Source of the DNA: Alphaproteobacteria bacterium
Lineage (GTDB): Bacteria > Pseudomonadota > Alphaproteobacteria > Micropepsales > Micropepsaceae
Assembly (NCBI GenBank): GCA_009693985.1
Contig: SHWE01000003.1
Location: 1-64,000 of the forward strand
Length of the DNA: 64,000 nt
Direction: 5' to 3'
Shown here: one piece after another, positions 4,920 to 63,967 of the stretch
Position numbering within the stretch: position 1 is the stretch's first letter
Layout of the letters: each line of letters begins with the position of its first letter
Program-made: the position numbers and the translations under genes
The notes under the pieces: model-generated
The model's database searches: none
What the model was told of the DNA's origin: nothing
The model's input: the letters and a program-made list of their open reading frames with translations, nothing else

Positions 4920-5894
4920 ATGACGAAGCTGCGTCTCTCCCTTGCCTGCAACGATTACGACCGCACAGCAGCGCTATTCGACGGGCGCGTGACGGCCGAG
5001 GGCATCGATCTCGACCTGCATATGCTGAAGCCGCGGCAGCTTTTCCCGCGCATGCTGGACCACCAGGAATTCGACGTCGCCGAGATATCGCTGGCCTCCT
5101 ACGCCGCGCTGGTGGCGCGCGGGGACAGTCCTTTCGTCGCCATTCCGGTCATGCTCTCGAAGCTGTTCCGCCATTCCTGCATCTATGTCCGCGAAGGTTC
5201 CGGCATCGCGAAGCCCGAGGATCTGAATGGCAAACGCATCGGCACCACGCAATATGGCGCGACGGCGATCGTCTATATGAAGGGCCTGTTGCAGGACGAA
5301 TATGGTGTGAGACCTGCGGACATGAATTGGTTCATCGGCGGGCTGAACACGCCCACCGAAAAGCCCCTGATCCCGCTGAACTTGCCCAAATCCATTGCAA
5401 TCGAATTTCTTCCTACCGGCCAGACGCTGGAGAACCTGCTGGTTCAGGGCGAGCTCGATGCTTTGTTCGCGATTCTGATCCCGAAGCTGTTCCTCGATGG
5501 TAGCCCACGCATCGCGCGGCTGTTTCCCGATTATCGAAAAGCCGAAGAGGACTATTACCGCCGCACGCGGGTCTTTCCGATCATGCATACGGTCGTCATC
5601 CGCAAGGAGATCGCCCGCGACAATCCCTGGGTGGCGCGCCGCCTCTATCGCGCCTTCTCCGCTGCGCGTGATCTCGCGATGGAGCCGCTCTACGACACCG
5701 ATGCGCTGATGGTGGCGCTTCCCTGGTTGATAAGCCATATAGAGGAGTCGCGGCGCGTGTTCGGCGAGGACATTTGGTCTTACGGAGTCGAGCCGAACTT
5801 CGCGTCGCTCGACGCCCTTTGCCGTTACGTGCACGAGCAGGGGCTGGCGCCGAGGCGTGTCGCACCCGCTGAGCTATTCATGCCGGTGGATTAG
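4920..5894 (+). CDS. 4,5-dihydroxyphthalate decarboxylase-like / periplasmic-binding-protein-fold protein (no signal peptide)
   Basis: KLRLSLACNDYDRTAALFDGRVTAEGIDLDL...EISLASYAALVARGDSPFVAIPVMLSKLFRHSCIYVREGSGI...LNGKRIGTTQYGATAIVYMKGLL. Confidence 0.75.
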   Translation: MTKLRLSLACNDYDRTAALFDGRVTAEGIDLDLHMLKPRQLFPRMLDHQEFDVAEISLASYAALVARGDSPFVAIPVMLSKLFRHSCIYVREGSGIAKPEDLNGKRIGTTQYGATAIVYMKGLLQDEYGVRPADMNWFIGGLNTPTEKPLIPLNLPKSIAIEFLPTGQTLENLLVQGELDALFAILIPKLFLDGSPRIARLFPDYRKAEEDYYRRTRVFPIMHTVVIRKEIARDNPWVARRLYRAFSAARDLAMEPLYDTDALMVALPWLISHIEESRRVFGEDIWSYGVEPNFASLDALCRYVHEQGLAPRRVAPAELFMPVD

Positions 5895-6778
5895 AAATTG
5901 GCCTTGTCCGCCTGCGGGATGGCAACGGATTCCGATCCGAAATAGGAGAACGGATTTTCCGCGCAGGACATCTCGTTGAGCGGCCCGGCGGCGGAAGAGG
6001 ACGACACTGCATTGACGGGAACATTGTTCTCGGCGACGCCCGGCTCGACGCGCCGCCAGCGCTGGATCGCGTTCCACGGCATGGTGAAGGCGCCGGGGTC
6101 ATCGACATGGATGCTCACTTCCATCGTCTTGCCGCCGTCGATCATGCGGAAGCGCTCGACGATGTGCAGCTTCTCGGTGTGCGGCGTGTAGAACCCGTCC
6201 ATATAGGTCTTGGTGTTGAACCCGATCGTGTCGACCACCAGCGTATCGCCCTCGTAATGGCCGATCGATTCGCCGAACCATGACGGCTTCGGATTCGTCG
6301 AATGCTTGTCGGTGAGATAGATACGGCGCACCTGATGGTCGCCCTGCCAGATCATCACGACTTCCGTCGGTCCTTGGACGATGAAGATCGGATGGATCAC
6401 ATGCAGCACGAAAGCCGGGCCGGTGGGCCAGCAATTCGCCTGACGGCTCGTCCCGCCCTTGCCGGATTGCACAAGCTCGCGCTGCTTACGCAATTCCTCG
6501 CGCGCCCAGGGTTGCAAAATGGGCGCGTTGAGATCGGCCAAGGCGATGGTCGGCTGCCGGCCGGTGCGGCGGAATTCCTCATTGGTGACGCGCGGAAATT
6601 TGGGGTCCTGGCCGACGGGCCCGGCGCCGCGCGGCGGTGCCATGAAGTCGCCGCCCAGCGAAATCCAGCCGACGCTCGGGTTGGGCGAAAAATTCGGCGG
6701 TGAAGCCGGCGCGGCCCATGCGGCGCCGAGGCAGAGGAACGAGACGGCGGCCATCGTCTGCAACGAAAATCCGGACAT
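5891..6778 (-). CDS. Secreted uncharacterised protein, nine-member paralog family (member 1, subfamily A)
   Basis: NPKPSWFGESIGHYEGDTLVVDTIG...TPHTEKLHIVERFRMIDGGK; NCWP and CAEN cysteines; C-term ADKANF. Confidence 0.85.
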   Translation of the reverse strand: MSGFSLQTMAAVSFLCLGAAWAAPASPPNFSPNPSVGWISLGGDFMAPPRGAGPVGQDPKFPRVTNEEFRRTGRQPTIALADLNAPILQPWAREELRKQRELVQSGKGGTSRQANCWPTGPAFVLHVIHPIFIVQGPTEVVMIWQGDHQVRRIYLTDKHSTNPKPSWFGESIGHYEGDTLVVDTIGFNTKTYMDGFYTPHTEKLHIVERFRMIDGGKTMEVSIHVDDPGAFTMPWNAIQRWRRVEPGVAENNVPVNAVSSSSAAGPLNEMSCAENPFSYFGSESVAIPQADKANF

Positions 6779-6790
6779 CGTCAGCGCTCC

Positions 6791-7690
6791 TCAGAAATAG
6801 GGCTTCTCCGCTTGCGGTATCGGGTAGGCATCGACGGCGCCGAACAGCGCATTCGGATTCTCGGCGCAGCTCGATTCGAGCATCGGCCCGGCATCGCCGG
6901 TGGACGACACCGCGTTGAGCGCTTCGGTCGCTTCGGCGACGCCGGGCTCCGAACGCCGATAGCGCTGCATCGCGTTCCACGGCGTCGTGAAGGCGCCCGG
7001 ATCCTCGACGTGAACGTTCACTTCGAGCGTCTTGCCGCCGTCGATCATGCGGAAGCGCTCGATCACGTGCAGTATTTCGGTGTGGGGCGTGCGAGAACTG
7101 TCGATGAAGGTGCGCGGGTTGACGCCGATCGTATCGACCACCAGCGTATCGCCTTCGTAATGACCGACGGACTCGCCGTAATCGGAAACCTTTGGATTCG
7201 CCGAATGGCGCACGTCCAGATAGATGTGGCGGACTTGATGATCGGCCTGCCAGATCATCAGCACTTCTTTGGGTGCTTGCACGAAATAGACGGGCTGCAC
7301 CGGATAAAGCAGGAAGCCGGGCACGCCGATGGGCCAGCAGCTCGCTTGCCGGCTATAGACGGATTTTCCGGCCACCACGTCGGCGTTATGTTTGCGCATC
7401 TGCTCGCGCGCCCAGGGTTGCAGGATCGGATTACTCAGATCGCCGACCGGAAATGTCGGTTGCGCGCCGCGTTCGCGCAAATCGTTATTGTTGGCGCGCG
7501 GACGGCCAGGATCGAATCGCACCGGCCCGGGGCCCGAGGACGGCGGAAGGAATTGCGCGCCGGCGGCGATCCAGCCGACGCTCGGATTGGGCGCGAAGTC
7601 GGGCGCGCCAACGCTCGGCGCGCCGAACGCGGCACCCAAGCACAGCATCCCGCTAGTTGCGCTCAAAAGCACGGACGCGAATCTGGACAT
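6791..7690 (-). CDS. Secreted uncharacterised protein, paralog family (member 2, subfamily A)
   Basis: GESVGHYEGDTLVVDTIGVNPRTFIDSSRTPHTEILHVIERFRMIDGGK; CWP/CAEN; C-term AEKPYF. Tandem with member 1. Confidence 0.85.
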   Translation of the reverse strand: MSRFASVLLSATSGMLCLGAAFGAPSVGAPDFAPNPSVGWIAAGAQFLPPSSGPGPVRFDPGRPRANNNDLRERGAQPTFPVGDLSNPILQPWAREQMRKHNADVVAGKSVYSRQASCWPIGVPGFLLYPVQPVYFVQAPKEVLMIWQADHQVRHIYLDVRHSANPKVSDYGESVGHYEGDTLVVDTIGVNPRTFIDSSRTPHTEILHVIERFRMIDGGKTLEVNVHVEDPGAFTTPWNAMQRYRRSEPGVAEATEALNAVSSTGDAGPMLESSCAENPNALFGAVDAYPIPQAEKPYF

Positions 7691-27052: not shown

Positions 27053-27967
27053 GTGTTGAAGGAAATGAGAATCGCCGGTTTGGGCGTGGCGTGTCTGTGC
27101 GGTTCTTGGCTTTCCTCGGATGCTGTGGGCGCGCAAGGTGTGAAACCCATCCCCGATTTCTCCGGCTATTGGGCGCGCTCGATCTTCGGCCAGGAATCGC
27201 CGGAAAGCGGTCCGGGTCCGATCCTCAATCTGAAGCGCCGCCCCGACGGCAAGAGCGACGCGCAGCAATTGGTCGGCGATTACAATTCTCCGATCCTGAC
27301 CCCGCGCGCGGCCGAAATTGTCAAGAAGCATGGCGAGCAATCCATCGCCGGCATTGCCTTTCCGGATCTTTCCAACCAGTGCCGGCCGATGGCGCCGCCC
27401 TACATCCTGCGTGTGCAGGAAGTGCAGCTTCTCCAGCAGAAACATCAGGTCATCATCCTCTACCAGCAGGATCATCAATATCGCCGCATCCGGCTCAACG
27501 ATTCGCATCCGAAGGATTTGCAACCGAGCTGGTGGGGCGATTCGATCGGCCATTACGAAGGGGGCACGTTGGTGGTCGATACGGTGGGCGCCAAGGTGGG
27601 CCCTGCCTCAATGGTCGATATGTTCGGCACGCCGCACAGCGAGCAGCTGCATGTCGTCGAGCGCTATCGCATGGTGAGCGGCGCAGAGGCCAAGGCGTAT
27701 CAGGACCGCAGCGAACAAGAATATGGCCGCCCCGACGGTCCTTCCGGCGACGGCATCTTCGTCGATTTCGATTATACGGGACCGGGCCTACGGGTGGAAT
27801 TCACCGTCGAGGACAAGGTGATGTTCAAGACGCCGTGGTCGGGCGCGATCACCTATCGCAAGGCCGCGCGTGCCGAAGGTGAGTGGGAAGAGCGCGTCTG
27901 CGCCGAGAACACATTCGAATATCACGAGGTCAATTTCATTCCGCAGGCGGCAAAGCCGGATTTCTGA
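27053..27967 (+). CDS. Secreted uncharacterised protein, paralog family (member 3, subfamily B)
   Basis: IPDFSGYWARS; LVGDYNSPILTPRAAEIVKKHG; PSWWGDSIGHYEGGTLVVDTVG; TPHSEQLHVVERYRM; VCAEN; C-term AAKPDF. GTG start, or ATG at 27065. Confidence 0.85.
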   Translation: MLKEMRIAGLGVACLCGSWLSSDAVGAQGVKPIPDFSGYWARSIFGQESPESGPGPILNLKRRPDGKSDAQQLVGDYNSPILTPRAAEIVKKHGEQSIAGIAFPDLSNQCRPMAPPYILRVQEVQLLQQKHQVIILYQQDHQYRRIRLNDSHPKDLQPSWWGDSIGHYEGGTLVVDTVGAKVGPASMVDMFGTPHSEQLHVVERYRMVSGAEAKAYQDRSEQEYGRPDGPSGDGIFVDFDYTGPGLRVEFTVEDKVMFKTPWSGAITYRKAARAEGEWEERVCAENTFEYHEVNFIPQAAKPDF

Positions 27968-29269: not shown

Positions 29270-30742
29270 TCACTTCCCGTCCAGCAGCCAGCCGAATTTC
29301 TCACGCGCCTTCTTCAACGTCTCGGGGCTCGGCGTGTTCGAAGGCGGGAACTTGTCGCGCCAATGATAGGGCTTGCAGGCATTGATGATGGCGACCGAGT
29401 GCGTCATGTCGCCGGCGGCGCGCTTCTCCGGAGAAAGCGCCGGATCGGCGGGACTGTCCCATGAACCTTCGATGAACTGGATGGACTGCTTGGGATCGGT
29501 GCGCATCAGCATCGCCCACAGCAAATGTTCGAGATTGGTCACATCGACGTCGTCATCCGTTACCACCACATATTTCGACGCATAGGCCGAGCCGCCGCAT
29601 TGGGCCGCAATGGTTCCGGCCTGTATCGCGTGGCCGGGATAATTTTGTGTGATCGACACGCCGTGCAGCGTGCGCGCGGCGCCGACTTCATGGCACCAGA
29701 CCTGCGCGATTCCCGGTACGCCTGCGCGCGTCATGTTCTCCTTGATGGTCGCGGATCGCATCACCGCCCGGTAGCGCGCCATCTCGTCCGCGCCCGCGCC
29801 CATCGGCGGCACGCCGACAAGTATGGGGTCGTTGCGGTGATAGATCGCCTCCACCTCGAGCACCGGCCAGCGCGCTTCGCCGCCCGCATAATGTCCGCTC
29901 CATTCGCCGAACGGCCCTTCGAGATGCGTCCGATTGGGATCGACCCAGCCTTCGAGCACGATTTCGGCGTTGGCGGGAAAGGGCAGGCCGGTGACGCGGC
30001 CCTTCACCATCTTCACGGGTGCTCCGCGTATGCCGCCGACGATGTCGAGCTCGAAGGTGCCGTAAGGGGCTTCGATGCCGCCATAGAAGAAGGACAGGGG
30101 ATCGCCGCCCAGCACCATCGCGACCGGCATCTTCTCGCCGCGGCGCTTGTACTTCTCGAAATGGATCGCGCCGTGATGGCCCGCCGCCATGACGAGGCCG
30201 ACGGAGTTGTGGGTATGAATCTGCGCGCGGTAAGCGCCTGCGTTGAGCCAGTGCTCCTCGGGATCGCGCGTGATGCTGAACGTGCCGGTGCCGATATAGC
30301 GGCCGCCATCCTTCTCATGCCAGATGGGCGCTGGGAATTTCTCCACATCGACGTGACCGCGCGTGACGATATTCTCCAGTACCGGGCCGCTCTCCACGAT
30401 CTCGTGCGCGATCAGTCTGGGGGTCTTGAGATAGGCCTCGCGGTAGGAATCGGAGAGTTCCCATTTGCTCAAATGATCGGGAAAGCCGAGCGTCATGTTG
30501 CGCCTGGTGCCGGCGAACATGTTCATCAGCAGACGAAAGCCCTTGGGGCAGCCCGGCACATCGTCGAACACCACGCAGGGACCGTTCTCGACCCGTAAGA
30601 TCGCTTCGGCGGCGAGCCCGATGTCTTCTTCCCAGCTGGCGCCGGCGACATGGCGCACTTCGCCCATGCGCTTGGCCAGCACCAGCCATTCGCGCAAATC
30701 CTCATAGGCGATGTGGCCGGTGAGATTGGGTCGTTCGGTCAT
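29270..30742 (-). CDS. UbiD-family (prFMN-dependent) decarboxylase, copy 1
   Basis: LNAGAYRAQIHTHNSVGLVMAAGHHG; HLEGPFGEWSGHYAG (E-x4-E); ILVGVPPMGAGADEM; HLLWAMLMRTDPKQSI. Confidence 0.92.
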   Translation of the reverse strand: MTERPNLTGHIAYEDLREWLVLAKRMGEVRHVAGASWEEDIGLAAEAILRVENGPCVVFDDVPGCPKGFRLLMNMFAGTRRNMTLGFPDHLSKWELSDSYREAYLKTPRLIAHEIVESGPVLENIVTRGHVDVEKFPAPIWHEKDGGRYIGTGTFSITRDPEEHWLNAGAYRAQIHTHNSVGLVMAAGHHGAIHFEKYKRRGEKMPVAMVLGGDPLSFFYGGIEAPYGTFELDIVGGIRGAPVKMVKGRVTGLPFPANAEIVLEGWVDPNRTHLEGPFGEWSGHYAGGEARWPVLEVEAIYHRNDPILVGVPPMGAGADEMARYRAVMRSATIKENMTRAGVPGIAQVWCHEVGAARTLHGVSITQNYPGHAIQAGTIAAQCGGSAYASKYVVVTDDDVDVTNLEHLLWAMLMRTDPKQSIQFIEGSWDSPADPALSPEKRAAGDMTHSVAIINACKPYHWRDKFPPSNTPSPETLKKAREKFGWLLDGK

Positions 30743-30811: not shown

Positions 30812-31660
30812 ATGCCCCGGTTTTCTGCTTCTCAATACCTTCTCATTGCCGCGCTTCTTGGCATGCTCGCCGTACCTGCGAGCCTTGCGCAGCAAGGAAC
30901 CAGCATCCCCAATTTCACCCCGGACGCGGAGACGAGCTGGGCCCCGGAGGGCGATGATTTCATCGCGCCGCCGAGTGGGCCAGGCCCGGTGACCTTCGAT
31001 CCAGCCCATCCCTATGTGCCGAATTTCACGCCCGGCAAGGCACCGACCTACCGGGTGGCGGATCTCACCAATCCAATCCTGAAGCCTTGGGCAGTGGAGC
31101 GGATGCGCAAAGACAATGCGGCGGTGATCGCCGGAGGCATCCCGTTCCGCGCCCGCGAGCGCTGCTGGCCGCCAGGGGTTCCGGCCTTCGCCATCTACAG
31201 CCTGGTCGAGCCGCTCTATTTTCTGCAAGAGCGAGGCAAGGTCACCATCATCGACCGCGGCAATGCCGAGGTGCGGCGCGTCTATCTGAACGTCCCCCAT
31301 TCGGCGAATCCGAAGCCCTCCTGGTATGGCGAATCGGTCGGCCATTACGAGAACGGCGACACGCTGGTGGTCGATACGATCGGGCTGACGGAAAAAAGCT
31401 TCGTCGACAATTACCGCACCCCGCATACGGAAGAGATGCGAGTCGTCGAGCGGTTCCGACTGATCGAGGGCGGCAAACGGTTGGAACTCACCATCCGCGT
31501 CGAGGACCAAGGCGCCTTCAACACGCCCTGGACGGCGGTGCAGCGTTTCCGGTCGCGGCCGAAAGACCCGCTGGATGAGCGGATTTGCGCCGAAAGCACC
31601 GAGAATTTTTTCAATCACGATCTGGTGCCGATTCCACAAGCCGAACGCGCGGATTTTTGA
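30812..31660 (+). CDS. Secreted uncharacterised protein, paralog family (member 4, subfamily A)
   Basis: NPKPSWYGESVGHYENGDTLVVDTIG...RTPHTEEMRVVERFRLIEGGK; RCWP/ICAES; C-term AERADF. Start moved to ATG 30812. Confidence 0.85.
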   Translation: MPRFSASQYLLIAALLGMLAVPASLAQQGTSIPNFTPDAETSWAPEGDDFIAPPSGPGPVTFDPAHPYVPNFTPGKAPTYRVADLTNPILKPWAVERMRKDNAAVIAGGIPFRARERCWPPGVPAFAIYSLVEPLYFLQERGKVTIIDRGNAEVRRVYLNVPHSANPKPSWYGESVGHYENGDTLVVDTIGLTEKSFVDNYRTPHTEEMRVVERFRLIEGGKRLELTIRVEDQGAFNTPWTAVQRFRSRPKDPLDERICAESTENFFNHDLVPIPQAERADF

Positions 31661-43555: not shown

Positions 43556-44424
43556 TCCCGTTCGATTGGGTGGAACCGCGAAGCTTTGCGGAAGCCGTGG
43601 CCTCCCTCGATCCGGAGGATCCGACCGTGCGGCCTGTGGCCGGCGGCACCGCGCTGATGCTGATGATGAAGGCCGGCGTCTTCACGCCCACGCGTCTCAT
43701 CAGTCTCGCGCAGATCGAGCCGCATTATTCCGCCATTACAGTTGAGAAGAACGGCGCGCTTCGCATCGGCGCCATGGCGACTCTTTCGGCGCTGGAGCAA
43801 TCATCCGCGGTGGCGGAGCATTTCCCGGTCATCACCGAAACCCTGCTTACGCTTTCCAATGTGCGCGTGCGCAACGTCGCCTGCGTCGGTGGCGCGCTCG
43901 CCCATGGCGATCCGCATATGGATTTGCCGCCGCTCTTCGCGGCGCTGGGCGCGAAGGTCCTGGTGCGCGGGCCGGCCGGCGTTCGCGAGATCGATGTCGA
44001 TTCGCTCTATGCCGGCTATTACGAAACCATGCTGGCGAAGGACGAGCTGATCGCGGAAGTCTTTGTGCCCGCCCTTAACGGCGCCAAATCCGCCTATATG
44101 AAATGCACGTCGCGTTCGGCAGACGATTGGCCGGCGCTGGGCCTCGCGGTTCGGTTTGAGGTCGAGGGGCACGCCCATATCCGCAATCCGCGGCTGGTGG
44201 TGAGCGCCGCTACCGAAAAAGTCACGCGGCTCACCCAAGCCGAGGATATTCTCAAAAATGCCGAAGCGGATTCCGTCGTGCTGAAACGCGCGGGCGAAGC
44301 GGCGGCCGAGGAAGTGACTCTGCTTGGCGATGCACATGGCTCCGCGTCCTATAAGCGCGAATTGCTGCGCGTCTATCTTGCCCGCGCGATCCGCCATGCG
44401 CTTGCCGGAAAGTCCGCGCAATGA
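43552..44424 (+). CDS. FAD-binding medium subunit of Mo hydroxylase (CoxM-like)
   Basis: VRPVAGGTALMLMMKAGVFTPTRLISLAQI; NVRVRNVACVGGALAHGDPHMDLPPLFAALGA. Confidence 0.9.
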   Translation: MIPFDWVEPRSFAEAVASLDPEDPTVRPVAGGTALMLMMKAGVFTPTRLISLAQIEPHYSAITVEKNGALRIGAMATLSALEQSSAVAEHFPVITETLLTLSNVRVRNVACVGGALAHGDPHMDLPPLFAALGAKVLVRGPAGVREIDVDSLYAGYYETMLAKDELIAEVFVPALNGAKSAYMKCTSRSADDWPALGLAVRFEVEGHAHIRNPRLVVSAATEKVTRLTQAEDILKNAEADSVVLKRAGEAAAEEVTLLGDAHGSASYKRELLRVYLARAIRHALAGKSAQ

Positions 44425-46697
44425 GCCAGATGGGCCGCTCCATCCCGCGTCTCGAAGCCCGTTCCAAGGTCACGGGCCGTGCCGAATATGTGCACAATAT
44501 GCGTGTGCCCGGAATGCTCACCGCCAAGATCTTCCGCAGCACGGTCGCGCATGGCCGCATTCTTTCCATCGATGCGGAAGAGGCGCGGGGGATGGAGGGT
44601 GTCTATGCCGTCGTCACCGGCGAAGACGTAAGGAAGATCATTCCTAACCCCTATTTCGGACCCGCCTTTCACGATCAGCCGATCCTTGCGCTCGACAAGG
44701 TGCGCTATGTCGGCGAAGCGGTCGCAGCGGTGCTCGCCTCCGATCCCCATATCGCCGAAGCCGCCGTCCAGACCATCTCCGCCGAATATGAGGAATTGGA
44801 GCCGGTGTTCGACGAGGTCGAAGCAACCTTGCCGAACTCTCCCATCGTCCATGACGAATTGAAGCCGGCCGGGACGTTCGCGGATTTGAAACATCTCGCG
44901 GGGCGCAAGAACACCAATATCGCGCTCGATTACCAATTGCGCCGCGGCGACGTCGATAAAGCCTTCGCCGCCGCCGTTCATGTCTTCGAGCACGAATTCC
45001 GCACCCAGCATGTTCTGCATGTGCCGCTCGAATCTCATGCGTCGCTGGCCATTCCGGGAGAAGGCACGCTGACGCTGCATACGTCGTCGCAAACGCCGTC
45101 TTTCGTGCGCATGGAGATCGCGCGCCTTCTCGGATGGCCGGAAAACCGCGTGCATGTGAAGGTGCCGTTCCTCGGCGGCGGCTATGGCGCGAAGGTCTAT
45201 GTGAAGGTCGAGCCGCTGGCGGTTGCGCTGGCGCTCATCGTGCGCCGCCCCGTCAAAGTTGCGCTCACGATGGAAGAGCAATTCTACACCATCACCAAGC
45301 ATCCGGTGACGTTCCGCATCAAGAGCGGCGTCGACAAGGACGGCCGCATCACCGCGCGCAAATGCGACGTGTATTGGAACGGCGGCGCCTATGCCGATAT
45401 CGGTCCGCGCGTGGCGCAGAAGACGGGCTTCACCGCGCCCGGGCCTTACGACATCGACAATGTCAGCATCGATTCCTACGAGGTCTATACCAACCGGCCG
45501 CCGGCGGGCGCGCTGCGCGGCTTCGGCGTGCCGCAACTCGTCTGGGCCTATGAATCCCACACCGATCTGATCGCGCGCGAGCTTGGGCTAGATCCGGTGG
45601 AGTACCGCCGCAAGAACATCCTTCGTGACGGGCGGCCGCACGCGACCGGCACGATCATGAAGGACGCCGGCATCGATGCGGTGCTCGATCGCATCGCCGA
45701 GCGGATGAATTGGAGCGTGGCCATCGACCGCGGCACGGGTCGTATCAAGCGTGGGCGCGGCATCGGTATCGGCTTCAAGGCCTCGATCTCGCCGACCACC
45801 TCGGGCGCCATCGTCAATGTCAGCGCCGACGGCAGCGTTGTCATCTTCACCAACACGATCGATATGGGGCAGGGCTCCGACACCGCGATGGCGCAGCTCG
45901 CGGCCGAAGTGCTCAATATCGACGCCGAGAAGGTGAAGGTCGTGCATGGCGATACCGATGCCGCGCCCTATGACATGGGCACGCTGGGCTCGCGCTCGAC
46001 CTTCCATATGGGCAACGCGGTCAAGCTTGCCGCCGAAGACGCGCGCGACAAGCTTGTCGCATTGGCCGCTGAAGTGGGCCTGCCAGCCGGCACCAATTAC
46101 GACGTCCAAGAGCTGTTCCGAAAGCGTTACGGCATGCGTGCCGGCAACATCGTCGGCGTCGGAAGCTACGTTCCGAGCTACACGCCGCCCGATCCGAAGA
46201 CAGGCCAATCCGCCAATGTCACGCCGTTCTGGATGGTGGGCGGCGCGGGCGCCGAGGTGGAGGTCGATACCGAAACCGGCCATGTGCGGGTGACCAAGCT
46301 CGTCAACGTCGCCGATGGCGGCAAGATCATCAATCCGAAAATCGCGCGCACGCAGATTTCGGGCGGCGCGATCATGCAATTGGGCTTCACGCTGACCGAG
46401 AGAATGGAGTTCGACGGCGGTCAGGTCACCAACGCGTCCTTCGCCGATTACAAGATCCCCGGTTTCCGCGATGTGCCGCCGATGGAATCGGAATTGATCG
46501 CGGCCAATCAGGAAAATGGCCCCTTTGGCGCCAAGGGTATCGGTGAGTCGGCGACCTTCGGCGTGTCGCCGGCCATCGCCAATGCGATCCATGACGCGGT
46601 GGGCGTGCGGCTGACCTCACTCCCCATCAAGGCCGAAGCGGTGTTGCGCGCCCTTCGCGCTGCGCAAGGTAATCCCCTCGCAGAGGACGAGGAATGA
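44421..46697 (+). CDS. Molybdopterin-binding large subunit of Mo hydroxylase
   Basis: SIPRLEARSKVTGRAEYVHNMRVPGML; FLGGGYGAKV; GALRGFGVPQLVWAYESHTDLIA; DMGQGSDTAMAQLAAEVL; GAKGIGESATFG. Confidence 0.93.
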   Translation: MSQMGRSIPRLEARSKVTGRAEYVHNMRVPGMLTAKIFRSTVAHGRILSIDAEEARGMEGVYAVVTGEDVRKIIPNPYFGPAFHDQPILALDKVRYVGEAVAAVLASDPHIAEAAVQTISAEYEELEPVFDEVEATLPNSPIVHDELKPAGTFADLKHLAGRKNTNIALDYQLRRGDVDKAFAAAVHVFEHEFRTQHVLHVPLESHASLAIPGEGTLTLHTSSQTPSFVRMEIARLLGWPENRVHVKVPFLGGGYGAKVYVKVEPLAVALALIVRRPVKVALTMEEQFYTITKHPVTFRIKSGVDKDGRITARKCDVYWNGGAYADIGPRVAQKTGFTAPGPYDIDNVSIDSYEVYTNRPPAGALRGFGVPQLVWAYESHTDLIARELGLDPVEYRRKNILRDGRPHATGTIMKDAGIDAVLDRIAERMNWSVAIDRGTGRIKRGRGIGIGFKASISPTTSGAIVNVSADGSVVIFTNTIDMGQGSDTAMAQLAAEVLNIDAEKVKVVHGDTDAAPYDMGTLGSRSTFHMGNAVKLAAEDARDKLVALAAEVGLPAGTNYDVQELFRKRYGMRAGNIVGVGSYVPSYTPPDPKTGQSANVTPFWMVGGAGAEVEVDTETGHVRVTKLVNVADGGKIINPKIARTQISGGAIMQLGFTLTERMEFDGGQVTNASFADYKIPGFRDVPPMESELIAANQENGPFGAKGIGESATFGVSPAIANAIHDAVGVRLTSLPIKAEAVLRALRAAQGNPLAEDEE

Positions 46698-53904: not shown

Positions 53905-54423
53905 CTAGCCCTCCGTCTTCGCGTGGTCGGATGCGGGCTGCACGACACGATCCGGTCCCAGCATTTCTTCGGCCGCCGTCAAAATGGCGCGCACGATATT
54001 ATGGTAGCCCGTACAGCGGCAGAGATTGCCTTCCATCTCCTCGCGCACGACATGCTCGTTCAGGGTACCGGGATAGGTGGCGATCAGTTCGGTAGCGGCC
54101 ATGATCATGCCGGGCGTGCAGAAACCGCATTGCAGGCCGTGACATTCGCGGAACGCCTTCTGCACGGGATGGAGTTGGCCACCTTCCGCCAATCCTTCGA
54201 TGGTGGTCACCGCATGCCCGGCCGCTTGGCCGACGAGCACGGTGCAGGACTTCACCGATACGCCGTCCAGATGCACGACGCAGCAGCCGCATTGAGTCGT
54301 GTCGCAGCCGACATGGGTGCCGGTCAGTCCCAGATGCTCGCGCAGGAATTCCGACAGCAGCGTGGGATCGGCCACGTCCTTCGTGATGTCCGCGCCGTTC
54401 ACCTTCATCGCGATTCTGGACAT
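53905..54423 (-). CDS. (2Fe-2S)-binding small subunit of Mo hydroxylase (CoxS-like)
   Basis: [54 protein letters not shown]; start ATG at 54423 overlaps the large-subunit stop. Confidence 0.93.
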
Positions 54424-56843
54424 CAGGCGCTTTTCCCTTTGTGAATAGCGGTCCAGATCTTCAATGGCGTCGCCGGCATCGAGACGTCTGGCGGGCCGTA
54501 ATCGAGCAGCGCGTCCTCGATGGCGCTCATGATCACGGCGGGCGCGGGCGTGGTGCCGCCTTCGCCACCGGCCTTCACGCCCAACGGATTGGTGGGAGAA
54601 ATCACCTCCGCGATCTCGGTGACGAAAGAGGGCATGTTGTCGAAGCGCGGCATGCCGTAATCGGTGAAGGCGGCCGCCAGCGGCTGACCGGATTCGGGAT
54701 CGATCACGCAGCCTTCCCACAGCGCCTGACCGACGCCTTGCGCGATGCCGCCATGCGTCTGGCCATGCACGATCATCGGATTGATGCAGCGGCCGACATC
54801 GTCGACGGTGGCATAGCGCAACAGCTCCAGCCCGCCGGTCTGCGGATCGATCTCGATCTCGCACATGCACGAGCCGTTCGGGAAGACCGGCGTGTGCATC
54901 TCATTGTCGCGCCGCACCTTCACCCCATCGGCGTGATCGGGCGAAAGTGCGATGGCAAGGCGCGCCAGATCGAACCAGTCGATGGTGCGGTTGCTGGCGG
55001 TGCTGCGGAAGCAGCCATCGTCGAATTCGACCGAGGCCGGATCGATGTTCAGGCTCGCCGCCATGATGGCCTTGCCCTTGGCGATCATGTCGGTGACGGC
55101 GAGAGAGATGACGGCGCTGGCATGGCGCATCGAGCGCCCCGAATGGGTGCCGCCGCCCGCCGACACCACATCGGTGTCGCCGAGCGTGATCTTGACCTTC
55201 TCGAACGCGATGCCGAGAAGATCGGCGGTGACTTGCGCGAAGCTGGTCTCGTGGCCTTGTCCCGCGGGCTGGGTGCCGATGACCACTTCGACTCCGCCGG
55301 GGCGCACGATCAGATCGGCGCGTTCCTTGGGCGTGCCGATGGAGGATTCGACGTAATTGGCGAAACCGATGCCGAGCAGCTTGCCGCGCGCCTTGGCTTC
55401 TTCTTTGCGTTTCTTGGCGCCTGCGAAATCGCCGATCTCCAACAGGCGGTCCATGTTTTTTTCGTACTCGCCGCTGTCATATTTCGAGCCGACCGCGTTG
55501 GTATAGGGCATCTGCGACGGCTTCACGAGATTGCGCCGGCGCAGCGCGATGCGGTCATAGCCGAGCTCGCGCGCCGCCTTGTCGATCAGACGCTCAATCG
55601 CGAAGGTCACCTCGGGGCGGCCCGAACTGCGATAGGCCTGGGTCGACATCGTGTTGGAATAGACCGCGCGCGAATGCAGCGTGGCGTAAGGAATGTCGTA
55701 GGAGCCGGTGATCAGGCCCGATCCTTTGCTGAGCGGCGACAGCGACACGCAGCGCGCGCCGACATTCGAAAGATTGTGCGCGCGCAGTGCGAGGAACTTG
55801 CCGTTGGCGTCGATGGCCAGCGAGACTTCGGTGACGAGATCGCGACCCTGATAATCGGTGAGGAAGGATTCGGAGCGGTCGGCACGGAATTTTACCGGAC
55901 GGCCGAGCTTCTTCGCCGCCCATACCACCAGTCCGAATTCTATGAAGGCGCGGTTGCGGGTGCCGAAATTGCCGCCGACGTCGAACGAAATAACGCGCAT
56001 CTTGTCGGGCGTCACGCCCAGCACCGAAGACATCTCGTGCTTTTGACGCACGGCGCCGCCGCTGCCGGCATAGAGCGTGTAACGGCCGGTCTTGGCGTCG
56101 TAGTCGCCGAGCGCGGCGCGCGGCTCCAACGGCACGCCGGTGACGCGGCCAAGATGGGTGCGCATGCTGACCACATGGGCGGCGCCGGCGAAGGCGGTGT
56201 CGGTGTTCTTCACATCGCCGAAAATGCTGTCGACCAGCACATTGTCGGGGAGCGCGTCCCACAGGCGCGGCGCGTCCGGCGCGGTGGCGGCCGTCGTGTC
56301 GGCGACCCAGGGCAGGGGATCGTAATCCACCATCACGGCTTCCGCGCCCGCCTGCGCTTGCTGGCGCGTTTCGGCGACCACCATCGCCACCGCTTCGCCG
56401 ACATGCCGCACGCGATCCATGGGGAGCAAATAATGTTCGCCGATATAGACGGGAGTCCCGCCGCGCCCCGTGAGCTTCACGTCGTATTTGGTGGAGGGCA
56501 CCGGATTGTGCGCGATCTGGCCGAGCCCGTCGGCGGCGAGATCGGCGCCCGTGTAAACGCCAAGTACGCCGTCCATCTCGAGGGCCGCGGAGACATCGAT
56601 GCCTTTGATCGTCGCGTGCGGATGGGGCGAGCGCACCATCACCGCGAAGACCTGGCCCGGTAGGCTGAAATCATCCGTGAACCGGCCACGGCCAGTGATC
56701 AGCCGCTCGTCTTCATTGCGGCGAACGGGTTTGCCGACGGATTTGAATTTCTGCGGTGGCAGGCTCAATTTTATGCGCTCTTGCAGGGGGGCGAATTGGT
56801 CTTTTGTATTATGGTCGACCAAATTCCACAAGGAGGCCAACAT
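54423..56843 (-). CDS. Molybdopterin-binding large subunit of Mo hydroxylase (CoxL-like); start uncertain (56768-56843)
   Basis: [85 protein letters not shown]. Confidence 0.9.
56812..56821. promoter_or_regulatory. Candidate operator palindrome (GntR/FCD-type)
   Basis: Perfect palindrome TGGTCGACCA within ATTATGGTCGACCAAAT between the divergent CoxSML operon and the secreted-protein operon. Confidence 0.35.
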
Positions 56844-56929
56844 GGGAACGCTGCCGCGGGCTATCGCTAAGGCCTTATCGGCCCCGAGCCTGCGGTGTAT
56901 CGTTCCCCCATACACAAGGGGAGGTTGGC

Positions 56930-57460: not shown

Positions 57461-58582
57461 ATGAAACATCGATCCGTCATCGCTAACGGAGTGCTATTTG
57501 CGGCCGTCTGTATGCTTGGTCTGTCGCACGAAGCGGCGGGGCAGGCGGGACAGCAGAACGGAATGGTTCTGCTCACGGACGGAACAAGCCTCGCCAATTT
57601 CGATCAGGCCGGCAACGCGAACTGGCATGTCGCCGAACGCACCGTCGTTTCCGACCGGGGCGCCGGTTTCCTGGTCACCAAACAATCCTATGGCGACTTT
57701 CGCTTCCGGGCCGAGTTCTGGGCGGATGAGGAAACCAATAGCGGCATCTTCATCCGGTGCGCCAATCCGCAAGCGCCCAGCGCCGCGACTTGTTACGAAG
57801 TGAATATTTTCGACAACAATCCCAATCGCGGCAACGCCACGGGTTCGGTCGTCGGTATCGCCAAACCAACTCCCGTGCCTCAAACCGCTCTCAAATGGAA
57901 CGTCATCGAAGTCGAGGCCAAGGGCACGCTGCTCAACGTCTCCGTCAACGGAGAGCGCACCGTCAGCGTTCATGACACGAAGCACGCGCGCGGCCGCATT
58001 GCGCTGCAACGCAACAGCGGCGTGATCCGGTGGCACAAGGTAGAAGTCCAGGCGCTCACCCCGGCCGATATCGCGGAAAACGCAACCCCGCTTGCCGCCA
58101 ATTGCCAATATGGTTTCGCCGTGATCTGGCCCGGTCAGCCGATGGTCAGGGACATAAGCTATACGACCTCCACCGGGATCAACGCTCCCGCCAAGCAGTT
58201 CTATGTGGAGCAGAACGGCAGCAAATATTGGGAGACCGTCGTGGAGCTCCCGAACGGGCCGAGGGCGGACTATGAGATCGTCATGCAGGCGCTGGCCGAG
58301 CTGAGCAAGAAGGGCGAAGTTCGTTTCCGCGGCTTTGGCGATTACGATCCCGGAATGCCTGGCGGCCAGCTCAATATCTTCCAACCGAACGGAAGGCAGA
58401 TTCGCGCGTCGATCTATATGGCCAACCACCGCCTCTTCATTACCGAGACGGAGGCTGTTGCCGGCGAACAGGCCGCCCTTCTGTTCGAGCAATCGATCAC
58501 GCTGATCAATCACGTCGGAACCAGCATCGATCGGGTCAACGCACAGAACGACCCGGGACCGCCCTACGATTGCGGGCGGTAA
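57461..58582 (+). CDS. Secreted DUF1080-like (3-keto-disaccharide hydrolase/LamG-type) domain fused to a C-terminal domain shared with 63422-63967
   Basis: YGDFRFRAEFWADEETNSGIFIRC...NWNVIEVEAKG-type pattern; C-term ANCQYGFAVIWPGQPMVRDISYTTS...RQLNIFQPNGR-like block. Confidence 0.8.
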   Translation: MKHRSVIANGVLFAAVCMLGLSHEAAGQAGQQNGMVLLTDGTSLANFDQAGNANWHVAERTVVSDRGAGFLVTKQSYGDFRFRAEFWADEETNSGIFIRCANPQAPSAATCYEVNIFDNNPNRGNATGSVVGIAKPTPVPQTALKWNVIEVEAKGTLLNVSVNGERTVSVHDTKHARGRIALQRNSGVIRWHKVEVQALTPADIAENATPLAANCQYGFAVIWPGQPMVRDISYTTSTGINAPAKQFYVEQNGSKYWETVVELPNGPRADYEIVMQALAELSKKGEVRFRGFGDYDPGMPGGQLNIFQPNGRQIRASIYMANHRLFITETEAVAGEQAALLFEQSITLINHVGTSIDRVNAQNDPGPPYDCGR

Positions 58583-58603: not shown

Positions 58604-59461
58604 ATGTCCTCGTTCACTGGGAGACAAAGGCTTCTGGCGGGCGCCATTCTCGCAAGTCTCTTAGGCATGGCGCCGATGGTCTCGACACTGGCGCAGCAAC
58701 AGGCCGCTCCCCCCGATTTCTCGTCGAACCTCGCCGGCTGGATCGGACTCAATGGCGGCGGTCCGTTCTTCGAAGCCGCGCCCGGGCGTGTTCCGGGACC
58801 TGTCGTCAGCGATCCGGCGCATCCCTTCGTCCCCAACGGCACCGACAAGCAGCCGACTTTCCGGATCGCCGATCTTTCCAATCCCAATCTGATGCCCTGG
58901 GTGAAGGAGTATATGAAGAAGGACATCGACGAGATTCTCGCCGGCAAGAAGCCTGCGTTCACCGCGCAATCGAGCTGCTGGCCGTCGGGGGTTCCCGGCT
59001 TCATGGGATATGGCGGGCCGGACCCCATCGTCTTCCTGCAAACGCCCAAAATCGTCTGGCTCATGTGGCAGGAGGATAACCAATCCCGGCGCATCTATAT
59101 GAACGTGCCTCACTCCGCCAATCCGAAGCCGTCATGGTATGGCGAATCGGTCGGCCGTTACGAAGGCGACACGCTCGTCATCGACACGATTGGGTTGAGC
59201 GACAAGACCTTCGTCGACATCTACCGCACGCCGCACACCGAAAAGCTGCACGTCGTCGAGCGCTGGCGCATGATCGACGGCGGCCGGATGATGGAAGTGA
59301 TATTCACGGTAGAAGACACCGGGGCCTTCTATCAGCCCTGGACTGGAATGCGGCGCTACCGGCGCGTGACACAGGAGGCTTATGAAAAGATCTGCGCCGA
59401 GAACAACACGTTCAACCTCATCGACTATAAGGTTCCAAGCGCCGAGAAGCCGGATTTCTGA
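58604..59461 (+). CDS. Secreted uncharacterised protein, paralog family (member 5, subfamily A)
   Basis: NPKPSWYGESVGRYEGDTLVIDTIGLSDKTFVDIYRTPHTEKLHVVERWRMIDGG; SCWP/ICAEN; C-term AEKPDF. Confidence 0.88.
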   Translation: MSSFTGRQRLLAGAILASLLGMAPMVSTLAQQQAAPPDFSSNLAGWIGLNGGGPFFEAAPGRVPGPVVSDPAHPFVPNGTDKQPTFRIADLSNPNLMPWVKEYMKKDIDEILAGKKPAFTAQSSCWPSGVPGFMGYGGPDPIVFLQTPKIVWLMWQEDNQSRRIYMNVPHSANPKPSWYGESVGRYEGDTLVIDTIGLSDKTFVDIYRTPHTEKLHVVERWRMIDGGRMMEVIFTVEDTGAFYQPWTGMRRYRRVTQEAYEKICAENNTFNLIDYKVPSAEKPDF

Positions 59462-59471
59462 GGAGTCGCCT

Positions 59472-60317
59472 ATGTCAAAGTTCCCATTCGCAGCGCGGCT
59501 TCTGGCCGGCGGCACGGCAATTCTCGCCGCGGCAATTTTTGTTGCCGGCGCGGCCGCGCAAACGCCCGCCTCGCCGCCCGATTTTTCCTCGAACGAAACC
59601 GCGTGGCAGGGCGGCAACGGCGTCAACTTCATCGCCGTTCCCGGCTCGCCCCGTCCTGTGACCAACGATCCGGCCCATCCCCATATCAGCAATGGTGAAG
59701 CCACGCGCAGGAACATCCAGCCGACCTACCGCATCGCCGATCTTACCAACCCCAATCTGAAGCAATGGGCCAAGGACGTCATGAAGAAGGACAATGACGA
59801 GGTCCTCGCCGGGAAGGTCGGCTACACGCCGGGCTCGTCCTGCAAACCGGCGGGCGTTCCCGCCTTCATGCTGGATGGCGGCCCGTTCTTCTTCGTCCAG
59901 ACGCCCAAGAAAGTCACGATCATCGCGCAAGGCGGGCCGGATGTGCGCCACATCTATATGGACGCGCCCCATTCGAAGAACATCAAACCGTCCTGGTACG
60001 GAGAATCGGTCGGCCATTACGAGGGCGACACGCTGGTCATCGATACGATCGGGCTGAACACCAAGAGTTTCGTCGATCATTTCCGCACGCCGCACACCGA
60101 GAAGCTGCACGTCGTTGAGCGCTGGCGAATGATCGAGGGCGGCAAGCAGATCGAATCCCTCATCACCATCGATGACCCGGACACGTTCAATCAGCCCTGG
60201 CAGGCGGTCCTGCGCTGGAACCGCGTGCAGAGGACGTTGCCGGAGATCATCTGCGCCGAGGGCAATTTGACGCTTTTCGATTACGATACGCCCATGGACG
60301 ACACACCGGACTTTTGA
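59472..60317 (+). CDS. Secreted uncharacterised protein, paralog family (member 6, subfamily A)
   Basis: IKPSWYGESVGHYEGDTLVIDTIGLNTKSFVDHFRTPHTEKLHVVERWRMIEGGK; SCKP/ICAEG; C-term DDTPDF. Start ATG 59472. Confidence 0.88.
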   Translation: MSKFPFAARLLAGGTAILAAAIFVAGAAAQTPASPPDFSSNETAWQGGNGVNFIAVPGSPRPVTNDPAHPHISNGEATRRNIQPTYRIADLTNPNLKQWAKDVMKKDNDEVLAGKVGYTPGSSCKPAGVPAFMLDGGPFFFVQTPKKVTIIAQGGPDVRHIYMDAPHSKNIKPSWYGESVGHYEGDTLVIDTIGLNTKSFVDHFRTPHTEKLHVVERWRMIEGGKQIESLITIDDPDTFNQPWQAVLRWNRVQRTLPEIICAEGNLTLFDYDTPMDDTPDF

Positions 60318-60330
60318 GCGAGGACTAAAG

Positions 60331-61179
60331 ATGAAAAAGCGGATTTTCACGGGCGCGGCTTTTGTCGCGGCAATCGCCTTTTTTGCCGCCGGAGCGGAAG
60401 CACAGAACAATGCCATTCCCAATTTCAGCTTCATCGAGTCCGGCTGGCTGCTTCAGGGCGGCATCAACTACCGGCCCATTCCCGGCAAGGTTGCGCCGAT
60501 CGCCGCCGACCCCGCCTATCCGCAAACGGGCGAGGGCAATCAGCGCGGCGTGATGGAGCGCATGTCCGATGCCGAGAACGCCAATCTGAAGCCGTGGGCG
60601 AAGGAATTGATGCGGAAATACAATCGCGATGTGCTGGACGGCCACCGCGCTTTCTCGTCGCAATCGCGTTGCTGGCCGGGCGGCACGCCGGGCCAATTGC
60701 TGTTTCCGGCCGAGCCCGTCTTCTTCGTCCAGACGCCGAAGCTGGTGCTGATGATGTGGCAGCGCCAGCAGGAGGTGCGCCGCATCCGTATGAACGTGCC
60801 GCATTCGCGCAATCCGAAGCCGTCCTGGTTCGGGGAATCCGTCGGCCGTTACGAGAACGGCGAGCTGGTCGTCGACACGATCGGTTTCCTCGACCGCAAG
60901 GAATTCGATTTTCTGGACAATTGGCGCACGCCCCATACCAAGGATTTGCATGTGGTGGAGCGGTTCAAGCTGATCGACGACGGCAAGGGACTCGAGGCGA
61001 CCGTGACGGTCGATGATCCCGGCACGTTCAACCAGCCCTGGTCGGGTACGGTGCGGTGGCAGAAAGTCGATCGCGGTCCGATTGGCGAGTCAATTTGCGC
61101 GGAAAACAACGACGTCTTCGAGAAATTTTTCGGACTTCAGGAATATCCGATGCCGCAGGCCAAGACGCCGGATTTCTGA
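60331..61179 (+). CDS. Secreted uncharacterised protein, paralog family (member 7, subfamily A)
   Basis: NPKPSWFGESVGRYENGELVVDTIGFLDRKEFDFLDNWRTPHTKDLHVVERFKLIDDGK; RCWP/ICAEN; C-term AKTPDF. Confidence 0.88.
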   Translation: MKKRIFTGAAFVAAIAFFAAGAEAQNNAIPNFSFIESGWLLQGGINYRPIPGKVAPIAADPAYPQTGEGNQRGVMERMSDAENANLKPWAKELMRKYNRDVLDGHRAFSSQSRCWPGGTPGQLLFPAEPVFFVQTPKLVLMMWQRQQEVRRIRMNVPHSRNPKPSWFGESVGRYENGELVVDTIGFLDRKEFDFLDNWRTPHTKDLHVVERFKLIDDGKGLEATVTVDDPGTFNQPWSGTVRWQKVDRGPIGESICAENNDVFEKFFGLQEYPMPQAKTPDF

Positions 61180-61215
61180 TTCTTTGAGGAAGCAATTTCA
61201 CATTTGGAAGGAAAC

Positions 61216-61623
61216 ATGCTCATGACATTTGTTCGGTCGGGACTGTTTGTTGCGATAGCGATGGTTGCGATGGCGCCCGCCGGCGCGGCGCTGGCGCAGG
61301 ATTTGCCGCAGCGGAAGGAAATACGGCGGATCGACCTGTCCGGCGCGCCGGGCATGGAGGTCGTCAGTTCCGTCAGCACATTCAAAGCAGGCGACGAATT
61401 CCCCCGTCATCTCCATCACGGCGTCGAGTTGGGCTATGTCGTTCAGGGAGCGATGATTCAATTGCCGGGGCAAGCGCCGGCGATGATGGCGACGGGGGCG
61501 CCGATCCAGAACCTGCGCGATGCGGTCCATGGCGGATTCAAGGTCGTCGGACCCGGCGACCTCATCCTCTTCACGGTGCACTCGGTGGATAAGGGAAAAC
61601 CGCTTTACGATTGGGTTAAGTAA
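61216..61623 (+). CDS. Secreted single-domain cupin protein
   Basis: Signal peptide; FKAGDEFPRHLHHGVELGYVVQGAMIQLPG cupin motif 1; PGDLILFTVHSVDKGKPLYDWVK. Confidence 0.82.
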   Translation: MLMTFVRSGLFVAIAMVAMAPAGAALAQDLPQRKEIRRIDLSGAPGMEVVSSVSTFKAGDEFPRHLHHGVELGYVVQGAMIQLPGQAPAMMATGAPIQNLRDAVHGGFKVVGPGDLILFTVHSVDKGKPLYDWVK

Positions 61624-61643
61624 TTCGAGGCGAGGATAGGACG

Positions 61644-62519
61644 ATGAAGAAGCGCGTCTTCGCGGGTGCGATCGCCGCGATGGTGGTGGTGCCCGTCACT
61701 GCGACGCCGGCCGAAACCATTCCCGATTTCTCGGGGATATGGTGGCATCCCTCGCTTCCCGGTCCCGAACCGCTGGCGTCCGGTCCCACGAGCTTGCGGA
61801 ACATGACGCGGCGTAAGGCCGACGGCGCGAGCGACTACAACGAGCTGGTCGGCGACTACAGCAATCCGATTCTGAAACCCGAAGCCGCGCAAATCGTGAA
61901 GAAGCACGGCGAACTTTCCAAGGCCGGTGTCGTTTACCCGAACCCGGCCAGCCAATGCTGGCCGGAACCGTTGCCGTTCATCTACAAGAATTTTGGACTC
62001 CAGATTCTTCAGCAACCGCACCAGATCACGATGCTCTACGAGCAGGATCACGAGGTTCGCCGCGTGCGCATGAACCAGGCGCATCCCGCTGTGGTGACGC
62101 CGTCCTGGTATGGGGATTCGGTCGGCTATTACGACGGCGACACGCTGGTGATCGACACCGTCGGACAAAAGGCCGGGCCGTTTTCGATGCTCGATCTCTA
62201 CGGCACGCCCTACACAAAGGCGCTGCATGTCGTGGAGCGTTATCGGCTGCTCGATTACGATGAAGCGAAAGAGGGCTTGGACCGCGACACCAAAGAGAAT
62301 TTTCATGCCCCGGTCGGCATCGACCGCACCTATCGCGGCAAGCACTTACAAGTGCGCTTCACGGTCGAGGATGACGGCGTCTTCACCACGCCGTGGTCGG
62401 CCACCGTCACCTATGGGCGCGGCTCCACCGACTGGCCGGAAACGGTCTGTGCCGAAAACGTCCGCGTCTATTACAGCACGGACACCGCCGTTCCGACCGC
62501 GGACAAACCGGATTTCTAG
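61644..62519 (+). CDS. Secreted uncharacterised protein, paralog family (member 8, subfamily B)
   Basis: IPDFSGIWWHP; LVGDYSNPILKPEAAQIVKKHG; PSWYGDSVGYYDGDTLVIDTVG; QCWP/VCAEN; C-term ADKPDF. Confidence 0.88.
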   Translation: MKKRVFAGAIAAMVVVPVTATPAETIPDFSGIWWHPSLPGPEPLASGPTSLRNMTRRKADGASDYNELVGDYSNPILKPEAAQIVKKHGELSKAGVVYPNPASQCWPEPLPFIYKNFGLQILQQPHQITMLYEQDHEVRRVRMNQAHPAVVTPSWYGDSVGYYDGDTLVIDTVGQKAGPFSMLDLYGTPYTKALHVVERYRLLDYDEAKEGLDRDTKENFHAPVGIDRTYRGKHLQVRFTVEDDGVFTTPWSATVTYGRGSTDWPETVCAENVRVYYSTDTAVPTADKPDF

Positions 62520-62521
62520 CG

Positions 62522-63418
62522 ATGCGCTTCTCGACCGGTCTCACGCTTAGCCTTTGCGCCGCTGCCGTCGCCGCGTCCGTAGCGGCGGCGCCTGCTCCTT
62601 CCGCGACTCCCACTCCGGATTTCTCCGGCATTTGGTCCCACCCTTTCCTCACCGGCATGGAGCCGCCGAAATCTGGCCCCGGCCCGGTGACGAACAAATC
62701 GCGCCGGCCCACTGGCGTGGCCAATTTCCAGATTCTGGTCGGCGATTACACCAATCCGATCCTGAAGCCCGACGCGGGCCAGATCGTCAAGCAGCACGGC
62801 GACCTTTCGCTCGGAGGCATCGGCTATCAGACCCCGAGCAATCAATGTTGGCCCGGCGGCGTGCCCTATGTGTTTTGGGATTTCCTGGTGCAGATATTCC
62901 AGACGCCGGACCACGTCACCATGCTCTATCGCCACGGCAATGAGACGCGCCGCGTGCGCCTGAACGCGTCGCATCCGGCGAAGGTGACGCCGTCCTGGTA
63001 TGGGGATTCGGTTGGCCGCTATGAAGGCGACACGCTGGTGATCGACACGGTGGGGATCAAAAAAGGGCCGTTCGCCATGCTCGACATGTACGGCACGCCG
63101 TTCACCGAGAAGCTGCATGTGGTGGAACGCTACCGCCTCGTCGATTACGACACCGCCAAGGACGCGATCGACCGCAATGCCAAGGAGAATTCCATGGCCG
63201 GCGAGGGCTGGGGCTTCGATCCCAACTATCGGGGCAAGGTGCTGCAGCTCCATTTCACGGTCGAGGATGAGGGCGTTTTCACGACGCCTTGGACGTCGAC
63301 CATCACCTATCGGCCCGCCGTGAATCCCTGGCCGGAACTCATCTGCGCCGAAAACACGCGCGAATATTATAACAACCGGGACTCCGCCATTCCGACGGCC
63401 GACAAACCGGATTTCTAG
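62522..63418 (+). CDS. Secreted uncharacterised protein, paralog family (member 9, subfamily B)
   Basis: TPDFSGIWSHP; LVGDYTNPILKPDAGQIVKQHG; PSWYGDSVGRYEGDTLVIDTVG; QCWP/ICAEN; C-term ADKPDF. Start ATG 62522, 2 nt after the previous stop. Confidence 0.88.
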   Translation: MRFSTGLTLSLCAAAVAASVAAAPAPSATPTPDFSGIWSHPFLTGMEPPKSGPGPVTNKSRRPTGVANFQILVGDYTNPILKPDAGQIVKQHGDLSLGGIGYQTPSNQCWPGGVPYVFWDFLVQIFQTPDHVTMLYRHGNETRRVRLNASHPAKVTPSWYGDSVGRYEGDTLVIDTVGIKKGPFAMLDMYGTPFTEKLHVVERYRLVDYDTAKDAIDRNAKENSMAGEGWGFDPNYRGKVLQLHFTVEDEGVFTTPWTSTITYRPAVNPWPELICAENTREYYNNRDSAIPTADKPDF

Positions 63419-63421
63419 AAA

Positions 63422-63967
63422 CTATTTCCGACAATTGTACTGGCGTGACGGCTGATTGCCGTTCTTGTCGAGATCGGTGCCCATGGCATTGATGATCGAG
63501 ACCGATTGCTCGAACTGAAGCGCGCGAAAATCTCCCGGCGCGGCATTGGCCTCCGTGATGTAAAGACGGTGGTCGTGCATGTAGACCGACGCCCTGTGCT
63601 GGCGGCCATTGGGCTCGTAGATGTTGAGCTGGCGGCCCGGGATTCCCGGATCGTAATTTTCGGCAAACTGGAAACGTACCTCGCCGCGCCGGCGTATGGG
63701 TACCGCGGCGGCCTCGACGATCGCGGCGTCCACGGCCGGCCCGGGCGAGAAGTCGGCGATGATCACGCTGAACGTATCGGTGCCCTGTTGGGCGGAGAAC
63801 TGCCGCGCCGGAACGCTGCGGCCGCTATTCGTGTAGATGAAATCCCTGATCGTCGGCGCCGCCGGGAAAATGGCGGCCATCCGGTACTGGCAGTTCACAT
63901 AGACGTTCTCGTCATAGGTGGGTTCGTCGAGCTGAGACCGGGCGGCAGCGCCTGTGAAGAGGACCAT
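63422..63967 (-). CDS. Secreted protein consisting of the domain found at the C-terminus of 57461-58582
   Basis: YVNCQYRMAAIFPAAPTIRDFIYTNSGRSVPARQFSAQQ...RGEVRFQFAENYDPGIPGRQLNIYEPNGRQHRASVYMHDHRLYITEANA...FEQSVSIINAMGTDLDKN aligns colinearly with the 57461 protein C-term. Confidence 0.8.
   Translation of the reverse strand: MVLFTGAAARSQLDEPTYDENVYVNCQYRMAAIFPAAPTIRDFIYTNSGRSVPARQFSAQQGTDTFSVIIADFSPGPAVDAAIVEAAAVPIRRRGEVRFQFAENYDPGIPGRQLNIYEPNGRQHRASVYMHDHRLYITEANAAPGDFRALQFEQSVSIINAMGTDLDKNGNQPSRQYNCRK

Follow-up and report, generated by a model that had tools for sequence, protein, structure and literature searches.

The 64,000-nucleotide stretch of alphaproteobacterial DNA analysed here (the window) encodes nine paralogous proteins which all end in phenylalanine and carry two cysteines in fixed contexts, and this raises the question of what such a strictly kept C-terminus is for. 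The original prediction took it for a recognition signal, read by the BAM machinery or by PDZ proteases, and added a structural periplasmic disulfide. It assigned all nine genes to positions 58604-63418; the set proved to be real, with the C-termini as listed, but that interval contains just five of the nine genes, and four are located elsewhere in the window. The genes are given below, together with two parts of paralog 5, whose residue numbers (C125, C264, F285) are used as the reference throughout.

5891..6778, minus strand: tailed-clade paralog 1, 295 aa, C-terminus ADKANF
6791..7690, minus strand: tailed-clade paralog 2, 299 aa, C-terminus AEKPYF
27065..27967, plus strand: tailed-clade paralog 3, C-terminus AAKPDF (ATG at 27065, alternative GTG at 27053)
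30812..31660, plus strand: tailed-clade paralog 4, C-terminus AERADF
58604..59461, plus strand: tailed-clade paralog 5, 285 aa, C-terminus AEKPDF
58673-59458, plus strand: modelled mature region of paralog 5 (AF2)
59435..59458, plus strand: C-terminal motif P-x-A-x-x-P-D-F of paralog 5, the last eight codons before the stop
59472..60317, plus strand: tailed-clade paralog 6, 281 aa, C-terminus DDTPDF
60331..61179, plus strand: tailed-clade paralog 7, 282 aa, C-terminus AKTPDF
61644..62519, plus strand: tailed-clade paralog 8, 291 aa, C-terminus ADKPDF
62522..63418, plus strand: tailed-clade paralog 9, C-terminus ADKPDF

The terminal Phe is present in all nine proteins, exactly as first described, and the two mature cysteines, in the contexts C125-x-P and C264-A-E, are equally invariant. 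The positions that do not vary in the nine-paralog alignment include C125, P127, C264, A265, E266, P278 and F285, while the extra cysteines encoded by the genes starting at 5891, 6791, 27065 and 62522 are signal peptide residues. The other eight paralogs carry the C-terminal motif of paralog 5 with small variations, and two further tailed copies are found past the window end (contig positions 64211-65074 and 65117-65956).

This conservation held in a wider set of homologs. From 251 sequences (fetched loci and the window) we retained 208 close-family members with a complete 3' end and a profile score of at least 190 bits, many of them from fragmentary MAGs and with copies of one genus dominating. 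The terminal residue was F in 203 of these (98%), S in two, and G, K and Y in one each; C264 was present in 208/208 and C125 in 206/208. The exceptions comprise a substitution (locus L092), a Tyr (L108), an altered end (L046) and C-terminal extensions in two adjacent genes of L028. For comparison, a terminal F is seen in only 12 of 422 long non-family ORFs of these loci (2.8%). The Phe ending is therefore far above chance, yet about 16 internal positions are conserved to at least the same degree: F285 ranks 17th among the conserved columns (97.6%), on a par with internal core residues, and P278 and D284 are kept in 206/208 and 194/208 sequences, respectively.

Counted from the right end, the profile of the 208 sequences reads F (98%), D at -2 (93%), P or A at -3 (68 and 20%), A at -6 (78%) and P at -8 (97%), with variable positions at -4, -5 and -7 and a further Pro at -10 in 57%. 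C264 and the Pro at -8 are separated by 11 to 25 residues, while the spacing of the last eight residues is fixed. This is the behaviour of a docking motif, i.e. a short linear motif carried on a linker of variable length. The terminal Phe is encoded by TTC in 113 cases and by TTT in 80, and the genes stop at TGA, TAA or TAG (143, 42 and 23, respectively), which points to selection at the protein level and not to a common stretch of DNA; a DNA-level cause, such as gene conversion or an overlapping signal, was rejected on account of this variation. As a separate observation, the last two codons show a mild GAT/TTT bias relative to Asp and Phe codons inside the genes (Fisher p 1e-14 and 2e-6, uncorrected for ancestry).

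The relationships of the tailed proteins were examined with a tree from which all columns beyond C264 were left out, to keep the tail from influencing the grouping. The 203 Phe-ending sequences and the five exceptions formed one clade (support 0.991), and none of the 75 sequences outside it ends in Phe. Such a distribution is what would be seen if the tail had simply been inherited from recent duplications. We consider this very improbable, as the aligned relatives share only 32-74% identity with paralog 5, the adjacent tail positions, the synonymous codons and the stop codons all vary, and copies belonging to another phylum have retained the motif.

The cysteine pair predates the terminal-Phe tail. 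Across the whole superfamily both cysteines are present in 278 sequences, both are absent in four (one of them a rearranged gene) and one is absent in a single sequence, and 202 of the 208 tailed-family mature regions contain exactly two cysteines. Near-perfect joint retention or loss of two cysteines is the pattern that a disulfide predicts and, together with an export-signal-like N-terminus in 197/203 proteins, it lends support by inference to the predicted periplasmic disulfide, which would join C125 to C264.

The family proteins are predicted to be exported to the periplasm. By a simple heuristic, an h-region-like N-terminal segment was found in 197/203, an AxA-like site in 198 and a lipobox in six, and a membrane-like segment within the mature protein, scored in the same simple manner, in only 2/208. 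AF2 modelling from 140 sequences (pLDDT 91, pTM 0.88) gave a helix followed by eight strands, in which the last ~22 residues were all coil (pLDDT 63-65); a model from the nine sequences likewise left the tail without resolved structure. The PDB matches listed by Foldseek were of the FABP/CRABP/myelin P2 type, with a best E value of 2.4e-3 and TM values by target of 0.42-0.51; none of the PDB fold matches reached an E value of 0.001 or better, and no match was obtained in the viral fold library. A soluble, eight-stranded FABP/lipocalin-like (calycin-like) sheet with a coil tail may thus be regarded as a lead from modelling, not as an established assignment.

With the tail profile and the model in hand, the proposed readers of the C-terminus can be weighed. 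An outer-membrane beta-signal recognised by BAM, as suggested in the original prediction, has the C-terminal Phe in its favour (203/208) and nothing else in the pattern: the expected alternation at -3, -5, -7 and -9 is missing, since -3 is P/A and not aromatic, -5 is D/A/K/E and -7 is Q/T/E, so that only -9 is hydrophobic. Prolines at -3, -8 and -10 and polar residues at -5 and -7 do not suit such a signal, nor does a soluble model with helices, short strands and 22 residues of coil at its end. A beta-signal read by BAM was rejected on these grounds, and we see hardly any likelihood left for it.

A general sorting or PDZ tag should also occur on other proteins. In G001, a genome of the same genus as the source, a DNA pattern search for P-x-A-x-x-P-D-F followed by a stop gave 49 matches, against 0-1 in the reversed control. 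Forty-seven of the 49 were family members, one was a family remnant and one a chance out-of-frame match (a 22-codon frame), those beyond 30 loci being assigned by coordinates to the family matches of G001. No unrelated protein with the tail pattern was found in this genome. Established sorting-tag systems (LPXTG, PEP-CTERM, T9SS CTD) were also considered and set aside, as there the tag is common to unrelated exported proteins, which is not the case in G001.

The same search bears on the possibility that the terminal D-F and the Pro-rich stretch act as a protection or turnover signal, tuning periplasmic tail-specific proteases (Prc/Tsp, DegS/DegP-like PDZ proteins). A conserved hydrophobic C-terminal residue and a Pro-rich tail would fit this. 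However, a general signal of this type would be expected on other exported proteins, of which none in G001 carries it, and the motif is longer than needed, as tail-specific periplasmic proteases usually require only a few C-terminal residues; we find this explanation quite improbable. As the tail fails the beta-signal pattern and is absent from unrelated proteins, the BAM and general-tag readings both fall. What survives of the predicted recognition signal is a possible docking motif specific to the family, with which the fixed spacing and the variable linker are compatible.

The reading that we favour, tentatively and with slightly less than even confidence, is that of a disulfide-stapled C-terminal docking motif on a flexible linker, specific to this periplasmic family and attached to a calycin-like body. 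According to it, the nine genes would encode exported periplasmic proteins with a soluble eight-stranded calycin-like beta body, whose most likely role is to bind a small molecule or convert it. A disulfide between C125, immediately ahead of the barrel, and C264, immediately behind the final strand, would staple down the base of a C-terminal arm, composed of the 11-25 residue linker and the fixed eight-residue motif P-x-A-x-x-P/A-D-F-COOH. This motif might dock via its terminal Phe, Asp and carboxylate into a groove of its own body or into a family-dedicated partner, and would be a part of the working or stability unit of the protein rather than a general sorting tag. Of these elements, the conserved motif, its restriction to one clade and the coupled occurrence of the cysteines were observed directly, export and fold are predictions, and the disulfide, docking and ligand binding are inferred.

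Docking onto the own body remains putative, given the coil state and low pLDDT of the modelled tail. The five sequences without the terminal F retain the conserved body almost intact, and the copy L101:702-1631 has lost several conserved body residues while its tail is retained. The roles of tail and body are thus separable. These same sequences reveal no docking site on the body; accordingly, when we looked for body residues that disappear along with the tail, there were none.

Separable body and tail, a fixed-spacing motif on a variable linker and an invariant free C-terminus also agree with a tag dedicated to the family, i.e. a motif for which all the paralogs would share one specific reader in the periplasm or the outer membrane (receptor, transporter, chaperone or PDZ protein). 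The presence of up to 82 tailed copies per genome argues in the same direction, and, if this were true, tens of ligand-specific bodies would plug into one machine. It does not accord, however, with the lack of the tail on unrelated G001 proteins, with heterogeneous genomic neighbours among which there is no single constant partner gene, or with the retention of the tail in Acidobacteria genomes that have only one tailed copy. We therefore hold a dedicated tag to be possible but rather unlikely. Its boldest form, in which P-x-A-x-x-P-D-F on the stapled arm is a universal plug by which up to ~82 ligand-specific periplasmic bodies per genome dock into one new shared machine or partner, seems to us unlikely, too.

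The genes surrounding the paralogs in the window encode molybdopterin dehydrogenases, a UbiD decarboxylase, ABC peptide transport, VOC and DUF1080 proteins. The occurrence of the UbiD decarboxylase and several xanthine-dehydrogenase-type molybdoenzymes near the paralogs (29270-30742, 383-2806, 16794-19130, 44421-46697 and 54423-56915) suggests aromatic or heterocycle catabolism. In a sample of 145 genes neighbouring the tailed ones we noted MFS transporters (8), PQQ beta-propellers (6), SGL (5) and DUF6152 proteins (3), as well as amidohydrolases and cytochrome c. Such a neighbourhood is compatible with periplasmic small-molecule metabolism and names no ligand. One arrangement was recurrent: a DUF6152 gene near an untailed member of the CGE-HRD type, which itself lies immediately upstream of a tailed member or next to it (loci L093, L094, L100, L101, L103, L088 and L179, from Alphaproteobacteria and Acidobacteria; the DUF6152 identity was confirmed in 7/7). 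In the window, the C-terminal part of the DUF1080 protein at 57461-58582 resembles, by eye, the whole of a small protein encoded on the other strand (63422-63967), for which no Pfam match was found.

The source genome (2.0 Mb, 64% complete) contains 25 family matches and G001 (3.9 Mb, 99% complete) 82 tailed and nine untailed copies, separated by a score gap (at least 221 bits for the tailed clade, at most 131 bits for the untailed members). Twelve genomes from other genera of the taxonomic family gave no match, and neither the class sample (386 genomes) nor the phylum sample (398), source genome included, held a tailed copy outside the genus, the remaining matches there being untailed and weak. 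Genomes reached through loci of Acidobacteria- or Acidimicrobiia-labelled MAGs contain 78-139 superfamily members each; in three of them, listed individually, the tailed range is reached by the top-scoring member alone, and the tailed copies bearing these labels also end in PDF. In G001, contig C7:49776-65694 (mostly L180) is a ~16 kb run of tailed paralogs, mainly head to tail. Elsewhere, L164:1230-1880 is an internally deleted family copy which retained its tail, and L199 (minus strand, around 9210-9460) contains an 81-aa frame with only a copied family tail; these remnants suggest that gene birth and decay are still under way.

Searches of Pfam, NCBIfam, PDB sequences and PHROGs with the tailed group gave no meaningful match, the core of the untailed members matched no family model, and a literature search on DUF6152 and the core motif retrieved no paper from the library searched. 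The 82 genes of a 3.9-Mb genome represent a secreted family without a Pfam or NCBIfam model or a solved relative, for which the fixed C-terminal motif and the cysteine pair are the first handles on how it works. A curated model of the family would by itself give a name to many genes currently called hypothetical.

Among known systems, the FABP/CRABP/lipocalin (calycin) proteins may be the closest in form: the modelled body has a predicted up-and-down eight-stranded beta fold, in line with the listed PDB matches, and its N-terminal part carries a conserved Trp (W46, 93%) close to the first strand. The family proteins differ from them in showing no sequence match and no fold match better than 2.4e-3, in being roughly twice the size, and in having an additional N-terminal helical part, the Cys pair and the C-terminal motif. 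Untailed superfamily members share the core S-x-G-x-[YW]-E-G-D-T-L-V-V-[DE]...P-H-[ST]-x-x-[LM]-x-V-x-E-R...[DE]-D-P and also the Cys pair, whereas their C-termini are variable (0/75 with a terminal Phe). DUF6152 (PF19649), a small exported protein adjoining the tailed/untailed pair in several genomes, is a neighbour and not a homolog. The Bug/TctC periplasmic receptors of Bordetella are venus-flytrap receptors, unrelated in fold and sequence to the tailed family, and they provide an example of the expansion of one periplasmic family within one genome on a similar scale.
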